From: Erysipelotrichaceae bacterium
GTDB taxonomy: Bacteria > Bacillota_I > Bacilli_A > Erysipelotrichales > Erysipelotrichaceae
Direction of reading: 5' to 3'
Assembly (NCBI GenBank): GCA_031272515.1
Contig: JAISTR010000042.1
Span: 62,001 to 126,000, forward strand
Length of the DNA stretch: 64,000 nucleotides
Shown: positions 37,198 to 46,591 of the stretch, one piece after another
Position numbering within the stretch: the stretch's first letter is position 1
Layout: every line of letters begins with the position of its first letter
Position numbers and translations under genes: made by a program
The notes under the pieces: model-generated
What the model saw: only the letters and a program-made list of their open reading frames with translations
Told to the model about the DNA's origin: nothing
Database searches by the model: none

Positions 37198-37650
37198 ATG
37201 CGAAAAACAGGTTTGATAGTCGTACTTTGTCTGCTGGTTTTGACCGGCTGCAAACCCAAAACTGCAGTGGAAGAAGAACCCACAACTTTGACCTGCAGCC
37301 AACAATTCGACAAAATCAGCTACGAATACTCGTTTGTCAATCAGGCACCTGTCACGCAGGTGATCCTCTATATGGAAGCGGATTACAGCTATTTCGGATA
37401 TACCAGTATTGAGGAGTTTGAGGAGAACATCGATTCGTTTGTTTCCTATTTCACCGAAGTCTTTTATAACGGCCCGGCAGGGGCGGTGGATGTATACAGC
37501 CTGGATGATAAAATCGTCGGGAAAATCACGATTGAAGGGGATGTCTTTGACTTCAGCCTGATTCTTGAGGAAACCGATGTCAATCTGGTTACCTTTGCGA
37601 TGCTGCGCGAATCGGCAGAGAGCGAAGGGCTTAGCTGTGAAGAATATTAG
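37198..37650 (+). CDS. Small lipoprotein 1 of four tandem paralogues
   Basis: A 150-residue lipoprotein, lipobox VLTGC (Cys18). The mature part begins with a Cys in LTCSQQFDK and ends with one in GLSCEEY. Shared core with its three neighbours: a beta strand region, YSYFGYTSIEEFEEN helix, then the KITIEGDVFDFS strand and ETDVNLVTFAMLRESAE helix. GGGAGG precedes the ATG. The beta-helix-beta layout recalls the YehR/DUF1307 lipoproteins, but I cannot confirm that. Function unknown. Confidence 0.8.
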   Translation: MRKTGLIVVLCLLVLTGCKPKTAVEEEPTTLTCSQQFDKISYEYSFVNQAPVTQVILYMEADYSYFGYTSIEEFEENIDSFVSYFTEVFYNGPAGAVDVYSLDDKIVGKITIEGDVFDFSLILEETDVNLVTFAMLRESAESEGLSCEEY

Positions 37651-37661
37651 GGGGGAGTTAA

Positions 37662-38102
37662 ATGAAAAAGATTTGCTTGAGTCTGGTACTGCTTTTGCTT
37701 TTATTGGGGGCGTGCAAGCCCGCGGGCAGTAGTGTGAAAACAATGGTCTGCACACAAATTGAAACAGAAGAAACGATTGAGTACGCCTTTGTCGGGGAAA
37801 AACCGGTCACCCAGATTATCGTGAAGATCACCGCTCATTACAGTTATTTCGGTTTTGCCAACCTGGAAGAATTCGAAGCATCCAAAGCGGAATTTGTACA
37901 AGACCTCCTCGATGTGTTTTACCCCGATGGCAAGGGGGATGCGTACAGCGAAGGGGAGAACATCATTGGCACAATCACCATTGCCGGAGCGGATTTTGAC
38001 TTCAGCTATATCCAGCTGGATGAAAAGGATTATAATAAGGTTACCTTTGATATGATCAAAGCATCCGCAGAACCCTATGGAATCAGCTGCGTGATTGAAT
38101 AG
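37662..38102 (+). CDS. Small lipoprotein 2 of four tandem paralogues
   Basis: A 146-residue lipoprotein, signal MKKICLSLVLLLLLLGAC with Cys18. It carries the same Cys pair (MVCTQIET near the start, GISCVIE at the end) and the shared core GEKPVTQIIVKITAHYSYFGF and GTITIAGADFDFS. AGGGGGGAG lies before the ATG, 11 bases after paralogue 1. Its signal peptide is almost identical at DNA level to that of paralogue 3, pointing to recent duplication or gene conversion. Confidence 0.8.
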   Translation: MKKICLSLVLLLLLLGACKPAGSSVKTMVCTQIETEETIEYAFVGEKPVTQIIVKITAHYSYFGFANLEEFEASKAEFVQDLLDVFYPDGKGDAYSEGENIIGTITIAGADFDFSYIQLDEKDYNKVTFDMIKASAEPYGISCVIE

Positions 38103-38122
38103 AAACTTCAGGAGGAATGCGC

Positions 38123-38560
38123 ATGAAAAAAATTTGCTTGAGTCTGGTACTGCTCTTGTTGCTGATGGCAGGGTGTAAAACTGCCAAAGACAAGACCCTG
38201 ACCTGTATCTGGGATGGCGGCGATGTGACGGTTGACTATTCCTTTGTCGGGGAAAAACCGGTAAAAACAATTGTCTTGAAGGCGGTAGCGGATTATACCT
38301 ATTATGGTTTCACCAGCATCGAGGAGTTTGAGGAAAACAAAGAGGAGTTCACCGAAGTCTTCGCCAAGTATTTTTATACCAGAGGCGGGGGTGAAGTGGA
38401 AGTGTATGCGGAAGGGGACAATATTGTCGGAATTCTGACCATTGCCGGTGCTGACTTTGATTTCAGTGTCGTCATTGACGAAACCGATGTCAACAAGGTT
38501 ACTTTTGCGATGCTGCAGGAATCGGCAGAAGCCTCAGGGCTCACCTGTGAGATTCAATAG
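38123..38560 (+). CDS. Small lipoprotein 3 of four tandem paralogues
   Basis: A 145-residue lipoprotein (lipobox LMAGC). Cys pair in LTCIWDGG and GLTCEIQ. Core FVGEKPVKTIVLKAVADY, TSIEEFEENKEEF, GILTIAGADFDFS, ETDVNKVTFAMLQESAE is closest to paralogues 1 and 2. The ATG at 38123 follows AGGAGG by 7 bases; an ATG two codons earlier is less well placed. Confidence 0.8.
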   Translation: MKKICLSLVLLLLLMAGCKTAKDKTLTCIWDGGDVTVDYSFVGEKPVKTIVLKAVADYTYYGFTSIEEFEENKEEFTEVFAKYFYTRGGGEVEVYAEGDNIVGILTIAGADFDFSVVIDETDVNKVTFAMLQESAEASGLTCEIQ

Positions 38561-38569
38561 GAGGAAAAT

Positions 38570-39013
38570 ATGAAAAAACTTGGTTTGATTTTGATTCTGG
38601 CTTTCGTCTTAATCAGCGGCTGTAAAAAAGGCAGCAGCAGTGGAGGCAGTAAGACTTTGGTTTGTGTGCTGGAGATGGAAGAAGGGGTCATCACCTACAA
38701 ATTTGAGGGTGAAAAGCCGATTATCACGGTGGTTATGGCGATTGACGCGCACCACAGTGCAATGGGTTATACCAGCATTGAGATGTATGAAGCGGACAAG
38801 CGCGCCTATGAAGCCTATCTGGGGCAGGCTTTTGCGGGCTACAAGGAACTGGAAAGCCACGCTAACGGGGACAACATTGTGGCTACGGTTACCTATGATG
38901 CGAAGGACTTCGACTTTAGTGGACTGGTTGATGAGACAGACTACAACAAGATTACCTTTGATGAGCTCAGCGCCTCCGCAACCGCCGATGGCTTGAGCTG
39001 TGTAGTGGAATAA
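38570..39013 (+). CDS. Small lipoprotein 4 of four tandem paralogues
   Basis: A 147-residue lipoprotein, lipobox LISGC (Cys18) followed by a KKGSSSGG linker. Most divergent of the four, yet it keeps the Cys pair (LVCVLEME, GLSCVVE), FEGEKPIITVVMAIDAHH, TSIEMYEADKRAY and KDFDFSGLVDETDYNKITF. AGGAGG precedes the ATG; 9 bases after paralogue 3. A strong terminator closes the cluster. Confidence 0.8.
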   Translation: MKKLGLILILAFVLISGCKKGSSSGGSKTLVCVLEMEEGVITYKFEGEKPIITVVMAIDAHHSAMGYTSIEMYEADKRAYEAYLGQAFAGYKELESHANGDNIVATVTYDAKDFDFSGLVDETDYNKITFDELSASATADGLSCVVE

Positions 39014-39030: not shown

Positions 39031-39079
39031 ACAGGCGACTGGCGTACGGGTTTCCACCCGCAGCCAGCGCCTGTTTTTT
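39031..39079 (+). terminator. Terminator of the lipoprotein cluster
   Basis: ACAGGCG-a-CTGGC-gta-CGGGT around a ttcc loop pairs with its complement and runs into TTTTTT. Confidence 0.9.
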
Positions 39080-39108
39080 ATGATAGAATACACTTAGTGG
39101 GGAAAAAC

Positions 39109-41481
39109 ATGAAACACAGAAAAATCCTGACCATAACACTTACGCTGATCCTGCAGCTTGGCCTCTGGCTCTTACCAATCCAGTCGGCCTCTTACAGCGC
39201 GAAAGTCAATGACAACGCCAATGTCTTTTCGAGTTCCCAAATCAAACAGATGGAGCAGGCGATTGCCGAGATTGACAGCAGCTATCAAAGCGACATCCGT
39301 GTCATTACCGAAAACACTTTAAGCAAATCTTCTTTGGAAAGCATGGTGGACTCGATTGTAAACAGCACACCGGCTTTACAGGCACCCAACGGTGGCATGA
39401 AGTCCAGCCTGATCCTGTTTATTGTCATCGTCAAGGACCAGCAGGTGGGGGTCTACTATGGCTCCTCCTGGAAATCTGCCCTGGATTTTGAAGTCGACAG
39501 CATCCTGGATGATTTCATGATTCCGGAATTTCAGTCCGGCGACTATGCCAATGGCATCCTGCGGGGCATCAATGAAGTCGGCCATGTGCTCGATTTAAAG
39601 CTGTATCCGGAAAAGACACCGCAGCCTGCGACCGACTGGTCCTGGCTATTATGGGTTTTCATCGCCGTCTTTGTCGGCTTTGTGATTGTGGAAATCTTCG
39701 TGCTGTTTTTTGGCAGCAAGCGCAAGAAGGCGCAGGAAAGCGAGAAGAAGGAAAGCGAACGGCAGAATGCCCTGCGCTTCCGCGATGGTGCAACTGCCAT
39801 ACTCGATCCCTATAGCAAGCCGGAATTTGCGGTGGTGACACAGGCAAAAATCAAGAAATACGGGGAACTTGACCCGGAAAAGAAGACCCAGCTGGAAAGT
39901 CTGTATGAGAAGTTTCAGGCCAGCTATGAGAAAGCCACCACGGCGATGTACAGTGCGGTGAGTGCTTCCGGCTCGCTGGATGACAAAAACCTGAGTGTTG
40001 AGGTCTATAAACAGGCAGGCTTGCGCTACGAGAGTATCCTTGAGGATGCCAAGGCTGCCAAAGGCTATATGGATGAATTCGATGCGATTGTTGATCAGAT
40101 TGATAATGAAGTCAGTACTTTGAAAGAGCGGGTCAATACCATTCAAACCAAGACGATTGGGGAGATTGAGTCGATGATTGACGATGCCAAAGCGGATGGC
40201 TATATGACCGAAGACTATACGGACATCGTCGAAGATGTAAAAAAAAAATGCACGAATGAATTGACCATTGTCTCCTTGCGGGAAATGGAAAAAGCGCTTC
40301 AAAGCGTGCGCTTGAATCTGACCGATATAAAGAAAAACAAAGAATACCTGATACAGCAGATCCCGCTGGTGGAGGCTTCTTTAACTAGTGCGCTCAGCAA
40401 TCTTCCGCATGTGAAGGTGCTTTTCAATGATTTGGTGAAGGAATATGCGCCGGCCTGCTATGAGGCGATTTGCGGCAATGGTTCCAGTGCCGCGGACAAA
40501 CTGGGTGAGGCACAGGAGTACTTTAATAGCAGCCTGGCCTCCAACTCTGCCCAGCACTATCAGGAAAGCATCGATTACCTCAACCTGGCCAGCGAAAAAC
40601 TGACGGAATCAGTCAATCTGAGCGATGCCATCAGTAGCCTGCACAGCAATCTCGCCGATGCCAAAAAGCGGGCACCGGAGGAATTCCGGCTGGCACAGGC
40701 GGACATCACCAAAGCAGAGGAAGCTTTACTGACCTATCAGGATGACATCAACGCGAGTGAGTACAGCGATGACATCGCCCAGACAAAAGCGGATTTGGCC
40801 AGTGCCCAAAGCGAGTATGCCAGCGCACTACCGGATATTAACCTTGTCATTGAACTGGCGCTTAAGGCCAACCATGGGGCGGATAAGATTCTGGAGGATT
40901 GCTTGAGTGAGCGGGAAGCGACCATCCGCTTGAGAAACCAGGCAAGGGAGCTGATGAAGAAGGCCAAGAGTGATGTGGATACGGTGAGCCGCTATGTGGA
41001 AAACCACAGCAGCGCCATCTCCAGCCGTACCATGAATGCCCTAAGCATGGCAACCAGCTATCTCAACCAGGCGATTGCGACCTCTGAGCTTCCTGCCCAG
41101 CTGGATAGCCGCAGCAAGCTTCTGCAACAATCAATTTCCGCAGCTGCAACCGCCTATGACTATGCCAAGCTGGATGTGTCCAATAGCCAGCGGACAACCC
41201 AAACTTCCTATGTCCCGGTCTTCTTTCCCAGCAATACAACCTACTACAGCCCCAACAAGAAGACACCGGTGAAATCTTCCGGAAGCAGCTTCCCCAGCTT
41301 CAATACCGGCAAGTCCAGTTCCTCAATCTTTGGAAGCTCATCCGGCAAATCGGTTGTCAGCGGCAGCTCCAAAGGCTTCAGCAGTGCCTCCAGTGCCTCC
41401 AAGGGCACAAGTTTCAGCGGCAGATCTGCCAGTTTTGGCTCTTCCCGCTCCAGCCGCAGTGGTTCTTCGCGCGGTTGGTGA
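39109..41481 (+). CDS. TPM-domain membrane protein with long coiled-coil and Ser-rich tail
   Basis: A 790-residue protein. Residues 1-27 are a signal peptide. A TPM (YgcG-like) domain occupies about 30-165 outside the membrane (VNDNANVFSSSQIKQMEQ, SSLILFIVIVKDQQVGVYYG). A single helix at 178-202 is followed by KRKK, placing the rest inside. Then come about 470 residues of Glu/Lys/Ala-rich helix, probably coiled coil, and a Ser/Gly tail ending SGSSRGW like that of YgcG proteins. GTGGGG lies 5 bases before the ATG at 39109. The next gene codes for a PspA-like protein, which suggests a joint envelope-stress role. Confidence 0.8.
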   Translation: MKHRKILTITLTLILQLGLWLLPIQSASYSAKVNDNANVFSSSQIKQMEQAIAEIDSSYQSDIRVITENTLSKSSLESMVDSIVNSTPALQAPNGGMKSSLILFIVIVKDQQVGVYYGSSWKSALDFEVDSILDDFMIPEFQSGDYANGILRGINEVGHVLDLKLYPEKTPQPATDWSWLLWVFIAVFVGFVIVEIFVLFFGSKRKKAQESEKKESERQNALRFRDGATAILDPYSKPEFAVVTQAKIKKYGELDPEKKTQLESLYEKFQASYEKATTAMYSAVSASGSLDDKNLSVEVYKQAGLRYESILEDAKAAKGYMDEFDAIVDQIDNEVSTLKERVNTIQTKTIGEIESMIDDAKADGYMTEDYTDIVEDVKKKCTNELTIVSLREMEKALQSVRLNLTDIKKNKEYLIQQIPLVEASLTSALSNLPHVKVLFNDLVKEYAPACYEAICGNGSSAADKLGEAQEYFNSSLASNSAQHYQESIDYLNLASEKLTESVNLSDAISSLHSNLADAKKRAPEEFRLAQADITKAEEALLTYQDDINASEYSDDIAQTKADLASAQSEYASALPDINLVIELALKANHGADKILEDCLSEREATIRLRNQARELMKKAKSDVDTVSRYVENHSSAISSRTMNALSMATSYLNQAIATSELPAQLDSRSKLLQQSISAAATAYDYAKLDVSNSQRTTQTSYVPVFFPSNTTYYSPNKKTPVKSSGSSFPSFNTGKSSSSIFGSSSGKSVVSGSSKGFSSASSASKGTSFSGRSASFGSSRSSRSGSSRGW

Positions 41482-41508
41482 TTGTTTTATGGAAAAAATT
41501 GGTATAAT
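41482..41508 (+). promoter_or_regulatory. Promoter of the PspA-like gene
   Basis: Extended TGG-TATAAT (41500-41508) with TTGTTT (41482-41487) at 15 bp; AAGGAGG follows at 41519-41525. It begins right at the stop of the TPM gene. Confidence 0.7.
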
Positions 41509-41534
41509 AAAGGTGATTAAGGAGGAAAACATTC

Positions 41535-42221
41535 ATGCCTAATTTGATTGAAAAGCTATGGGATTCTGCATTAGGGAAACTGCACGCATTGGTTGATAAA
41601 GTATACAATACTCCGGAAACCTACGCGCAGGCAATTCGCAAACTGGAAGGGGTTTTGGCAGATTTGTATGCGGCCAGAGACGAAGAAGTCGGACGCAAGA
41701 ACGGCATCACCAAGGAAGTTTCAACCTTGAAAGCGGCGATTGCCAAAAACAGTGCCAACCGCGACCTGCTGCTCAGCGATGATGATGAAAGCAATGACAG
41801 CGTAGCGCTCAGCTTCCAGCTGAAGATTGATGCCGACGAGACCCGCCTGGCGGAAATGGTGGAAATGGAAGCGGAAGCCATCAAGAATGTCACCGAACTT
41901 TCCACAGCGCTGGATAAGGGCGAACAAAAACGGGCCGAGATGGTACACAACCTGAAGAAACTGCAAATGACCGCCAAGACCGCGGAAGCGAAATCCAAGG
42001 CGGCTGGCGCGATTGAAGATGCCCTGAAAGTCTTCGACAGCAACAGCAGCATCGATTCCATCAGCGGCAAGATTGAGGAAAAAGCCAGAACTGCGGATGC
42101 GAAATTCGAACGGGTCGTAGGCAGCATGCATGATGCCAACAGTCCGGAGGAAATTGCGGCTTTGGCGGAAGCGAAAGCCAAACTGGAAGCCCGCAAGGCG
42201 GAACTCAACAAAACCGAATAG
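41535..42221 (+). CDS. PspA/IM30-like coiled-coil protein
   Basis: A 228-residue, almost wholly helical, charged cytoplasmic protein. The N-terminal MPNLIEKLWDSALGKLHALVDKV is amphipathic, like the membrane-binding helix of PspA, Vipp1 and LiaH; the segments YAQAIRKLEGVLADLYAAR and VTELSTALDKGEQKRAEMV would be the long hairpin arms. No membrane segment. PspA proteins polymerise on damaged membranes. It has its own promoter but directly follows the TPM protein. The family call rests on architecture and is not certain; a generic coiled-coil protein is the alternative. Confidence 0.6.
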   Translation: MPNLIEKLWDSALGKLHALVDKVYNTPETYAQAIRKLEGVLADLYAARDEEVGRKNGITKEVSTLKAAIAKNSANRDLLLSDDDESNDSVALSFQLKIDADETRLAEMVEMEAEAIKNVTELSTALDKGEQKRAEMVHNLKKLQMTAKTAEAKSKAAGAIEDALKVFDSNSSIDSISGKIEEKARTADAKFERVVGSMHDANSPEEIAALAEAKAKLEARKAELNKTE

Positions 42222-42229
42222 AGAGTGAC

Positions 42230-42260
42230 AAAGAACCGGAACCAACGGTTCTTTTTTTTT
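42230..42260 (+). terminator. Terminator of the PspA-like gene
   Basis: AAAGAACCG-gaaccaa-CGGTTCTTT and a run of T. Confidence 0.9.
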
Positions 42261-42365
42261 GGCGGAATTCTCACAAACGACGCAACCTTTTTGCCCTCTA
42301 AGCGCTGCTGTCAACACTGTCTGCGATTTTCCGCTATACTTGTATCAAAGAAAAGGAGAATCAAG

Positions 42366-43619: not shown

Positions 43620-45062
43620 TTGCCGAAACAAAACCCTTTACAACAGTTTTTATCCAAGTTAAGCAAGCAGCAGCGCATTTTGTTGTTTGGCGGCGCCGGT
43701 TTTCTTGTGGTCGTCATCATCGTGCTGGTTCTGTTTTTTGCGATGCCCAGGGGCAAGAAGGTTGCGGAAAATCAATTGCCGATGCCCAACTTCGTTGGCC
43801 AGCAATATTCCATCGTCCTGGACTTTGCCCAGAAGAACAATCTGACCCTGAGCGTCAGCTATACCTACAGCGATACCGTTGAGAAGGGCTTTGTCGTGGA
43901 CCAGAACCTGGAACCGGAAAGCGATGCCTTCGGACAGATTATCGAAATTACCCTGTCCAAGGGCAGCAGCAGTTCTGCCTATCTCTCGGAGATTGATGGC
44001 GAAAACCTGATTTTGCCGGATGTGGTTGGCAAGTCTGTCACCGAACTGGAAAAGTGGGTGGCAGCCAACGATCCGACCCTGGATGTCCAGTACACCGGTG
44101 TCTATGACAACACCCTGGCCAAGGACATGGTAATTTCCCTGGAGCCGGAAAAGGAAGTACGGGTGGGGGCAACCTTGATTGTGAGCGTTTCGATGGGCAA
44201 ACCGGAAGTTCCGGACTTTACCAATCAGAGCTATACCGCCTACAGTCAGACCTTCAACACCCTCAATCAAAACGGCGCCAAGCTGGTACCGCAGGTGACT
44301 TACCAATACAGCGATACCATCACCAAGAACAACATCATTACCCAAACCCCGGCTGCCGGTCCGGTCAATGTCGGCAGCAATATCAATTTCGTGGTTTCCC
44401 TGGGTAAATATACCCCCGGCAAGTTCACCGGGACCCTGGCCCAAGCCCAGGCGGCTTTGGCCAGTGAGAACCAGAAAGGGGCAGGGTGGACCTTAATCGA
44501 AGGGACCCCGGCTTACAGCTCGAGTGTTCCCGCCGGACAGCTGATCAGTGCTTCCCAGGTGGAAAACAGCACCAACAAGACGATTACTGTCATTGTCTCC
44601 TTGGGTCCTTCCACACCGACCAATGTGACGGTGGGCAACTATGTGGGACAGTACTATACCGGTATCACCAATCCTACCGGCTTGACGATTAGTCCGGTGG
44701 CCGGTACCTGCAGCATCGGTAATCTGACCTATTGTGCGAGTAATGCGGCGGATGTCAATAAGGTCTATGAACAAAACCCGGCAGCCGGGACCTCGGTTGC
44801 CTCCGGTTCTGTCGTGACGGTGAAATACTATGGTGTCATGACGATTCCGGCACTGGTGGGCAATTCCGGTTCGGATGTCGCCAGCATCCTTTCCTCATGC
44901 GGATTTACCTCAGTGACCTCGGTGACTGAAACCAACCCGGATTCCTCCAATCCGGCACTGACGGCTCCTGGTGTTGTCTGGAAGGTGGAACAGTCTGACG
45001 GCAGTGCCTTGCCTTCATCCTCGCACCTGGCTATATCCATCAAATACTACGTTAATCCCTAA
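43620..45062 (+). CDS. Orphan PASTA-repeat membrane protein 1
   Basis: A 480-residue protein with a short cytoplasmic N-terminus, one membrane helix (about 21-42, LFGGAGFLVVVIIVLVLFF) and an extracellular part made of about six PASTA domains (for example LPMPNFVGQQYSIVLDFAQKN, LPDVVGKSVTELEKWVAAN, VPDFTNQSYTAYSQTFNTL). PASTA domains bind muropeptides or lipid II and normally sit on PrkC kinases or PBPs; neither catalytic domain is present. The fifth unit contains CSIGNLTYC, a pair of Cys that recurs in paralogue 2. The start is TTG, 8 bases after GGGGGA; no ATG fits. It may be a passive wall-binding partner of a kinase encoded elsewhere. Confidence 0.82.
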   Translation: MPKQNPLQQFLSKLSKQQRILLFGGAGFLVVVIIVLVLFFAMPRGKKVAENQLPMPNFVGQQYSIVLDFAQKNNLTLSVSYTYSDTVEKGFVVDQNLEPESDAFGQIIEITLSKGSSSSAYLSEIDGENLILPDVVGKSVTELEKWVAANDPTLDVQYTGVYDNTLAKDMVISLEPEKEVRVGATLIVSVSMGKPEVPDFTNQSYTAYSQTFNTLNQNGAKLVPQVTYQYSDTITKNNIITQTPAAGPVNVGSNINFVVSLGKYTPGKFTGTLAQAQAALASENQKGAGWTLIEGTPAYSSSVPAGQLISASQVENSTNKTITVIVSLGPSTPTNVTVGNYVGQYYTGITNPTGLTISPVAGTCSIGNLTYCASNAADVNKVYEQNPAAGTSVASGSVVTVKYYGVMTIPALVGNSGSDVASILSSCGFTSVTSVTETNPDSSNPALTAPGVVWKVEQSDGSALPSSSHLAISIKYYVNP

Positions 45063-45086
45063 AGGACCGCACCCCGGTCCTTTTTT
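45061..45086 (+). terminator. Terminator of PASTA protein 1
   Basis: AAAGGACCG-caccc-CGGTCCTTTTTT. Confidence 0.9.
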
Positions 45087-45102
45087 CATTTGGTATGAAA
45101 AG

Positions 45103-45120
45103 CCAGGGGAAATCCCCTGG
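45103..45120 (+). repeat. Perfect hairpin in the PASTA intergenic region
   Basis: CCAGGGG-aaat-CCCCTGG without a U-run, 17 bases after the terminator and upstream of the next promoter. Role unknown. Confidence 0.45.
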
Positions 45121-45231
45121 ATTCATTCAATCATAAAACAATAAATACTACTATTAAATGAAAATAATGAAAATAAAGAAAAATATGTGATAATTTTGTG
45201 AAAATTTGTTAGACATTAACGAATGATTGTG

Positions 45232-45260
45232 TTTCCATGGCGGAAAACTATGTGTATAAT
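45232..45260 (+). promoter_or_regulatory. Promoter of PASTA protein 2
   Basis: TTTCCA (45232-45237), 17-bp spacer, TATAAT (45255-45260). GGGGGA then precedes the ATG. Confidence 0.65.
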
Positions 45261-45301
45261 ATATGTACCAGCAAATGTTTGGGAATATCTGACTGGGGGA
45301 A

Positions 45302-46591
45302 ATGATGAGCCAGAAGACTACGGAAAAGAAGCAGGGGTTTTTTACGGGTGACAATAAACGGAAGTGGATTATTGTCGGCGGCGCCGGTCTTTTCTTTGTG
45401 GTTGCTTTGACAATCGTTTTGGTGTTTACCTTAAAACCCAAAGCGAATGCCGATAAGATTGTCTTGCCGATGCCCAACTTTGTCGGGGCACAGTACAGCG
45501 ATGTTGTAAACTGGGCCAAGGAAAACGATTTAACCATCGCCATCCGCTATCAAAACAATGACCAGCCATCCGGGATTATCCTGGATCAAAATATCTCACC
45601 GGACAGTGAAGCCTACGGGCAGACCCTGATTATCACCCTGTCCAAAGGCAACAGCCTCGCCGCCACCGGCGGCGACTCCGCCACGGTCTTCAAAATCCCG
45701 GACTTCACGGGAAAAGGCCAGACGGATGTGGAAACCTGGATTGCCCAAAACGACAAGACCATTGTGCTGGAGAGCACCTTCATCTTTGACAATACCATCG
45801 CCAAAGACGTCCTGATTTCCTGGTCACCAGCCGATGAAATCAAAACCGGAGCAACCTTAAGTGTGGTGATCTCCAAAGGCAAGCCGACCCTGACCGACTT
45901 TACCGGACAGCCCTACAGCGATTATGCGGCTTTGTTGAATCAGCTCAATGCCGAAGGGGCACAGCTGATTCCGGATATCACCTACAGCTATTCCAATACC
46001 ATTGCCAAGGACCGGGTCATCTCCCAGGATATCGGTGATGTCAATGTCGGGGCTTCGGTCAAGGTGGTGGTCTCCCTGGGACCGACTTCGGCGACCGTCA
46101 AGGTGGGACAGTATACCGGCTTTGACTATACCAAGCTGCCCACTCCGATTCCTTCGGGACTGTTGGCAAATTTTGTCGGCGGACCCTGTGAAATTGGCAA
46201 CATCACCGGCTGTGCCGGCTCCAATGCGGACATCAACCGCGTCTACTATCAATCCATTGTGGCGGAGACGGTCGTCAATACCGGCACCTCTATCGAAATA
46301 CGCTATTTCATCGGCATGGCAATGCCGGATTATGTCGGCAAGTCCTTTGCGGATGTGGTCGGCCCGGACCTCAATGCCCGCGGCTTTACCCAATACCAAT
46401 ACTACAGCCAGGCCAATACCACCGGCAGCGGACCCACCGAAGCCGGGGTTGTCTGGAAGGTAGCTGATGGCAATGGGGCCGTTTTGGCACCTGGCAACTA
46501 TCCGCTGACCAAGACTATCAAGATTTATGTCAACCCGACCGATAACCTGCCGCCGCAAAATCCGGAGGAACCGCCCAACGGCGACGAATAA
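45302..46591 (+). CDS. Orphan PASTA-repeat membrane protein 2
   Basis: A 429-residue paralogue of the preceding gene. Cytoplasmic leader, membrane helix (about 20-41), then about five PASTA domains (LPMPNFVGAQYSDVVNWAKEN, IPDFTGKGQTDVETWIAQN, LTDFTGQPYSDYAALLNQL). It keeps the Cys pair as CEIGNITGC at the matching position and ends in a hydrophilic Pro/Glu-rich tail. ATG at 45302 or the adjacent ATG at 45305, after GGGGGA. The separate promoter and terminator mean the two paralogues can be expressed independently. Confidence 0.82.
   Translation: MMSQKTTEKKQGFFTGDNKRKWIIVGGAGLFFVVALTIVLVFTLKPKANADKIVLPMPNFVGAQYSDVVNWAKENDLTIAIRYQNNDQPSGIILDQNISPDSEAYGQTLIITLSKGNSLAATGGDSATVFKIPDFTGKGQTDVETWIAQNDKTIVLESTFIFDNTIAKDVLISWSPADEIKTGATLSVVISKGKPTLTDFTGQPYSDYAALLNQLNAEGAQLIPDITYSYSNTIAKDRVISQDIGDVNVGASVKVVVSLGPTSATVKVGQYTGFDYTKLPTPIPSGLLANFVGGPCEIGNITGCAGSNADINRVYYQSIVAETVVNTGTSIEIRYFIGMAMPDYVGKSFADVVGPDLNARGFTQYQYYSQANTTGSGPTEAGVVWKVADGNGAVLAPGNYPLTKTIKIYVNPTDNLPPQNPEEPPNGDE

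Follow-up and report, generated by a model that had tools for sequence, protein, structure and literature searches.

A gene for a TPM-domain membrane protein with a long coiled coil adjoins a gene for a diverged PspA-like protein in an Erysipelotrichaceae bacterium: a candidate minimal YdjH-PspA type module

The window, i.e., the complete stretch of 64,000 nucleotides that was analyzed, carries two intact neighboring genes on the forward strand. According to the open reading frames, the first (positions 39109 to 41481, ATG at 39109) encodes a TPM-domain single-pass membrane protein of 790 amino acids and the second (41535 to 42221) a protein of 228 amino acids from the PspA/IM30 family (ESCRT-III superfamily). 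The intergenic gap amounts to 53 nt. Judged by their flanks, the two genes form a two-gene unit, because predicted intrinsic terminators are present on both sides. The strong upstream terminator (39031 to 39079, forward strand; stem CAGGCG-CTGGC...GCCAGCGCCTG, then T6; folding energy -30.3 kcal/mol, z -6.4) belongs to a cluster of lipoprotein genes, while the one that closes the unit is located at 42230 to 42263 on the same strand (-11.7 kcal/mol, z -2.1). The cluster itself (37198 to 39013) comprises four paralogous genes in tandem. Their lipoprotein products of about 147 aa, 33–50% identical to the first, yielded no significant Pfam match and by eye resemble lipoproteins of the YehR/DUF1307 type. 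On the other side, at 43620 to 46591, two tandem membrane-anchored PASTA-repeat proteins (Pfam PASTA) are encoded that do not contain a kinase domain.

A candidate promoter for the first gene, read from the sequence with the -35 region unscored, is the extended -10-like element TGATAGAAT shortly upstream of it (39081 to 39089, forward strand). A motif scan revealed a perfect extended -10, TGGTATAAT, at 41500 to 41508 on the forward strand, i.e., between the two genes. As this element may provide the PspA-like gene with a promoter of its own, co-transcription is not assured; perfect extended -10 motifs occur six times in the window with 1.15 expected. The 2.13-Mb genome contains a single copy of the TPM family (PF04536), the 790-aa protein, and a sole match to the PspA family (PF04012), the 228-aa protein. 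With one copy per family and some 2,000 genes, a number estimated from genome size, adjacent and co-oriented placement has a probability of about 1 in 2,000, and a chance pairing appears unlikely. The unit encodes neither a regulator nor a two-component system, and its open reading frames and Pfam matches revealed no LiaI/F/G, PspB/PspC/PspF or zinc-ribbon YdjG protein in it. A band-7 protein of the YdjI type (PF13421) was not detected anywhere in the genome, which is 97% complete, with the same search recovering the Bacillus subtilis control.

The product of the first gene starts with a predicted signal peptide (residues 1–26; 39109 to 39186) containing a hydrophobic stretch at residues ~5–26. 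It is followed by the TPM domain (residues 33–158; 39205 to 39582), which is supported by PF04536 well above the curated Pfam threshold (64.9 bits vs. a cut-off of 22.1, E 9.4e-18) and by a match to PDB entry 2kw7 (E 3.5e-7). Hydropathy places a transmembrane helix at residues ~174–204 (39628 to 39720), and the basic sequence GSKRKK directly behind it agrees with the positive-inside rule, such that the TPM domain is predicted outside the cell and the remainder inside. An earlier sequence-only reading, which had proposed an external TPM domain and one membrane helix, is thus confirmed on these points. The cytoplasmic part consists of a predicted helical/coiled-coil region (residues 206–690; 39724 to 41178) and a basic, Ser-rich tail (residues 690–790; 41179 to 41478) that ends with SGSSRGW, as in other proteins of the TPM family. 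Over the 485 residues of the helical region, Pro and Gly together account for 4% and hydrophobic periodicity peaks at 3.5 residues, a peak height not reached in any of 500 shuffles. Structure prediction returned helix throughout, albeit with a mean pLDDT of 59.5 and only the first ~135 residues reliable. The figure of some 470 coiled-coil residues given in the earlier reading is therefore a fair description, though the model breaks the region into about 11 helices instead of one rod. A fold search with this low-confidence model gave no meaningful match; the idea that the coiled coil might itself be a PspA homolog was rejected, as no homology was found.

Signal peptide, outer TPM domain, membrane helix and Gly/Ser-rich tail constitute the set of elements typical of the YgcG/YdjH type. 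Since the TPM proteins of relatives, where the C-terminus could be read, mostly carry a comparable basic tail rich in Ser and Gly, the 790-aa protein is, from its sequence, an ordinary protein of this type in which a coiled coil of about 480 residues separates the tail from the membrane helix. In the phylum-level sample, all other TPM open frames were 507 aa or shorter.

The product of the second gene matches PF04012 over practically its full length (residues 4–222, profile positions 2–216 of 220, E 2.3e-6), and its score of 27.8 bits lies below the gathering cut-off of 33.9. Identity to PspA proteins from the same class is 17–22%. AlphaFold2 without an alignment (mean pLDDT 69.7) predicted helices at residues 4–23, 27–81, 86–146, 150–170, 173–197 and 204–227, an arrangement that follows the ESCRT-III plan of alpha-0, a long alpha1-alpha2/3 hairpin, alpha4 and alpha5. 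When this model was compared with the PDB using Foldseek, the top eight matches were all Vipp1 chains (best E 7.9e-3, probability 0.9–1.0, low TM-scores). At the N-terminus lies an amphipathic helix, its moment being 0.54–0.61 as compared to 0.44–0.59 in PspAs from six relatives. Family profile and predicted fold together identify the protein as a diverged PspA/IM30 homolog, in agreement with the earlier notion of an adjoining PspA-like protein with an amphipathic start; a structure unlike PspA, named there as a ground for abandoning the idea, is not what the model indicates. As a member of this family, the protein would bind membranes and oligomerize.

Close relatives of either protein were found neither in 146 genomes of the family and 392 genomes of the phylum nor in two GTDB scans, two scans of viral contigs and plasmids. 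Matches of the 790-aa protein elsewhere were weak and did not extend beyond the TPM domain and the membrane helix. The exact pair was accordingly not recovered from other genomes searched and, with the genus represented by one genome in the comparison, its co-conservation is neither supported nor disproved. Of 56 relatives sampled that encode a TPM domain, 10 also gave a PF04012 match of some kind. Weak matches in genomes G027, G069, G097, G107, G114, G116 and G133 covered the profile partially and were not counted as PspA. Genome G411 encodes a shortened PspA-like protein of 206 aa (L082:7358-7978), which scores 34.7 bits against PF04012 and has no TPM gene beside it; a tandem double-TPM protein is encoded elsewhere in the same genome (L068). 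On the other hand, one of those ten relatives, a genome from the same order (G426, locus L081), contains genes for PspA, a band-7 protein with zinc ribbon, a zinc-ribbon membrane protein and a TPM protein in one run, i.e., the gene set of the B. subtilis ydj locus in slightly different order. With regard to the conserved neighborhood demanded in the earlier reading, the outcome is mixed: a linkage of TPM and PspA exists in this order at L081, but the exact pair did not recur in the genomes searched.

A third group of PspA systems besides Psp and Lia, in which PspA is associated with TPM/YdjH proteins, has already been described (PMC11237479; PMC8581546). One of these studies names proteins with TPM and a long coiled coil as conserved PspA partners (Ravi et al., 2024; PMC11237479), the same order of domains next to PspA as found here. 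In B. subtilis, the formation of PspA foci requires YdjI as well as the membrane proteins YdjG and YdjH, two-hybrid contacts were seen, and YdjG/H/I bring PspA to the membrane (PMC8581546). The contact to YdjH is thought to run via YdjI. The window pair, like pspA-ydjGHI, combines a PspA homolog with an adjoining TPM/transmembrane protein that carries a low-complexity tail. It differs in that the TPM gene comes first and pspA second, the unit lacks YdjG and the genome YdjI, the TPM protein contains the coiled coil of ~480 aa, and PspA remains under the Pfam cut-off. Recruitment of PspA by the membrane proteins was demonstrated in B. subtilis (PMC8581546). The TPM protein at L081 shares the membrane helix and the Gly/Ser-rich tail, but is only 286 aa long and part of four genes including a canonical PspA (134 bits). 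Lia (LiaIH) and Psp (PspABC/F) likewise couple an effector of the PspA family to a membrane partner; none of their membrane or regulator genes belongs to the unit studied here. With a TPM membrane protein gene directly adjoining pspA, the pair belongs to the known TPM/YdjH branch. It had been suggested to be distinct from Psp and Lia, which is correct only insofar as it falls into this third, previously described group; the pairing as such is not new. It deviates in its minimal form, without YdjG in the unit, without YdjI and with a PspA that has no detectable close relative.

We consider it fairly probable (about two in three) that the two genes constitute a minimal membrane-stress module of the YdjH-PspA type, in which the TPM/coiled-coil protein serves as the receptor that docks PspA. 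The TPM protein would span the membrane and expose its TPM domain to the exterior; the long cytoplasmic coiled coil and the basic Ser-rich tail would act as a receptor or assembly platform that recruits the diverged PspA to the cytoplasmic surface of the membrane. There, the amphipathic helix alpha-0 would bind lipid and PspA would polymerize via its ESCRT-III core, such that the bilayer is stabilized or repaired. Recruitment of PspA by a membrane complex containing TPM has been shown for B. subtilis only; direct docking and the sensing of stress by the TPM domain we infer. As YdjI is missing from the genome and YdjG from the unit, the coiled coil may take over the adaptor role of YdjG and the band-7 protein YdjI. 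The TPM domain, the PspA family assignment and fold, the adjacency of single copies, the terminators on either side and the run at L081 argue for such a module, as do the TPM/coiled-coil partners of PspA named by Ravi et al. (2024), the dependence of PspA foci on YdjG/H in B. subtilis and the lack of a PF13421 band-7 protein in the genome. Counting against it are the failure to find the exact pair again, the extended -10 between the genes, the score of PspA under the cut-off, the lack of the family thought to link PspA and YdjH in B. subtilis, and the absence of a regulator from the unit.

Other functions are conceivable for the same gene pair. A role in chaperoning or assembly has been proposed for the TPM domain of Psb32/TLP18.3. 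Applied to the present pair, the TPM protein would help to assemble or repair membrane protein complexes with PspA remodeling the membrane locally and stress sensing playing no part. A unit without regulator or two-component genes would suit such a role, and Ravi et al. (2024; PMC11237479) favor a chaperone-like function for TPM with PspA. The 790-aa protein indeed matches a Psb32 model (NF047379, E 1.5e-4), but with 21.5 bits against a cut-off of 160 this reflects the shared TPM domain only, and no client is known. We regard an assembly function as rather unlikely. Much less probable still is that TPM, as the family name TPM_phosphatase alone suggests, is an active phosphatase with PspA as its regulated partner: the activity is disputed in the literature, the group of Ravi et al. 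later calls it unlikely (PMC12419801), and the predicted topology puts the TPM domain outside the cell and PspA inside, which leaves this proposal hardly credible.

The two genes might also be unrelated neighbors, namely a generic TPM protein of the YgcG type, which acquired its coiled coil in this lineage, next to a PspA relic in the process of losing its function. The low identity of this PspA to those of the same class, the absence of the exact pair from the other genomes searched and the possible separate promoter of the second gene are consistent with that. The pspA frame, however, is intact and retains all six helices including the amphipathic alpha-0, the odds of chance adjacency are small, and a linkage of TPM and PspA is known independently and recurs at L081. 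Coincidence is therefore a very improbable explanation.

If the minimal module works alone, it would offer a very simple setting for studying by what means a TPM domain outside the cell passes signals to a bacterial ESCRT-III polymer or tethers it, a question that the better-known four-gene ydj operon poses as well. A further-reaching version, in which the two components make up a PspA system sufficient in itself, with one TPM/coiled-coil receptor in place of YdjG/YdjI and a co-diverged PspA lineage outside Pfam recognition, is put forward tentatively and appears doubtful as it stands. That a PspA under the cut-off could be recognized through its TPM neighbor implies that PspA is possibly under-counted in this order.

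Within the family of the window organism, every PspA gene above the threshold (five out of five) directly follows a gene for another tailed membrane protein. These partners contain two transmembrane helices and a Ser/Gly/Arg-rich tail, and among 295 genomes of the order, pspA adjoins the gene in all 15 genomes that have the protein. The arrangement, with the two-TM gene directly upstream of pspA, was found at L085:4353-6060, L086-L089 and L091-L105. It resembles that of the window pair in gene order and strand, but the tail is N-terminal, two helices span the membrane instead of one, PspA is canonical, and a kinship to TPM is not established. An initial hhalign comparison of the outer domain with TPM gave E 4.8e-6, better than 300 column shuffles. 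In a larger alignment of 16 sequences, the score no longer stood out from those of the shuffled controls, and the assignment is considered unproven. The outer domain is conserved, with the motifs TGxQPYxVI and IMDxEA, and has no Pfam match. Two more paralogs of the two-TM protein (L106 and L107) are encoded without a pspA neighbor. In genome G517, the partner gene is split across contigs C21 and C95 (L105/L108) and contains in-frame TAA codons, which probably reflects an assembly error or a broken copy.
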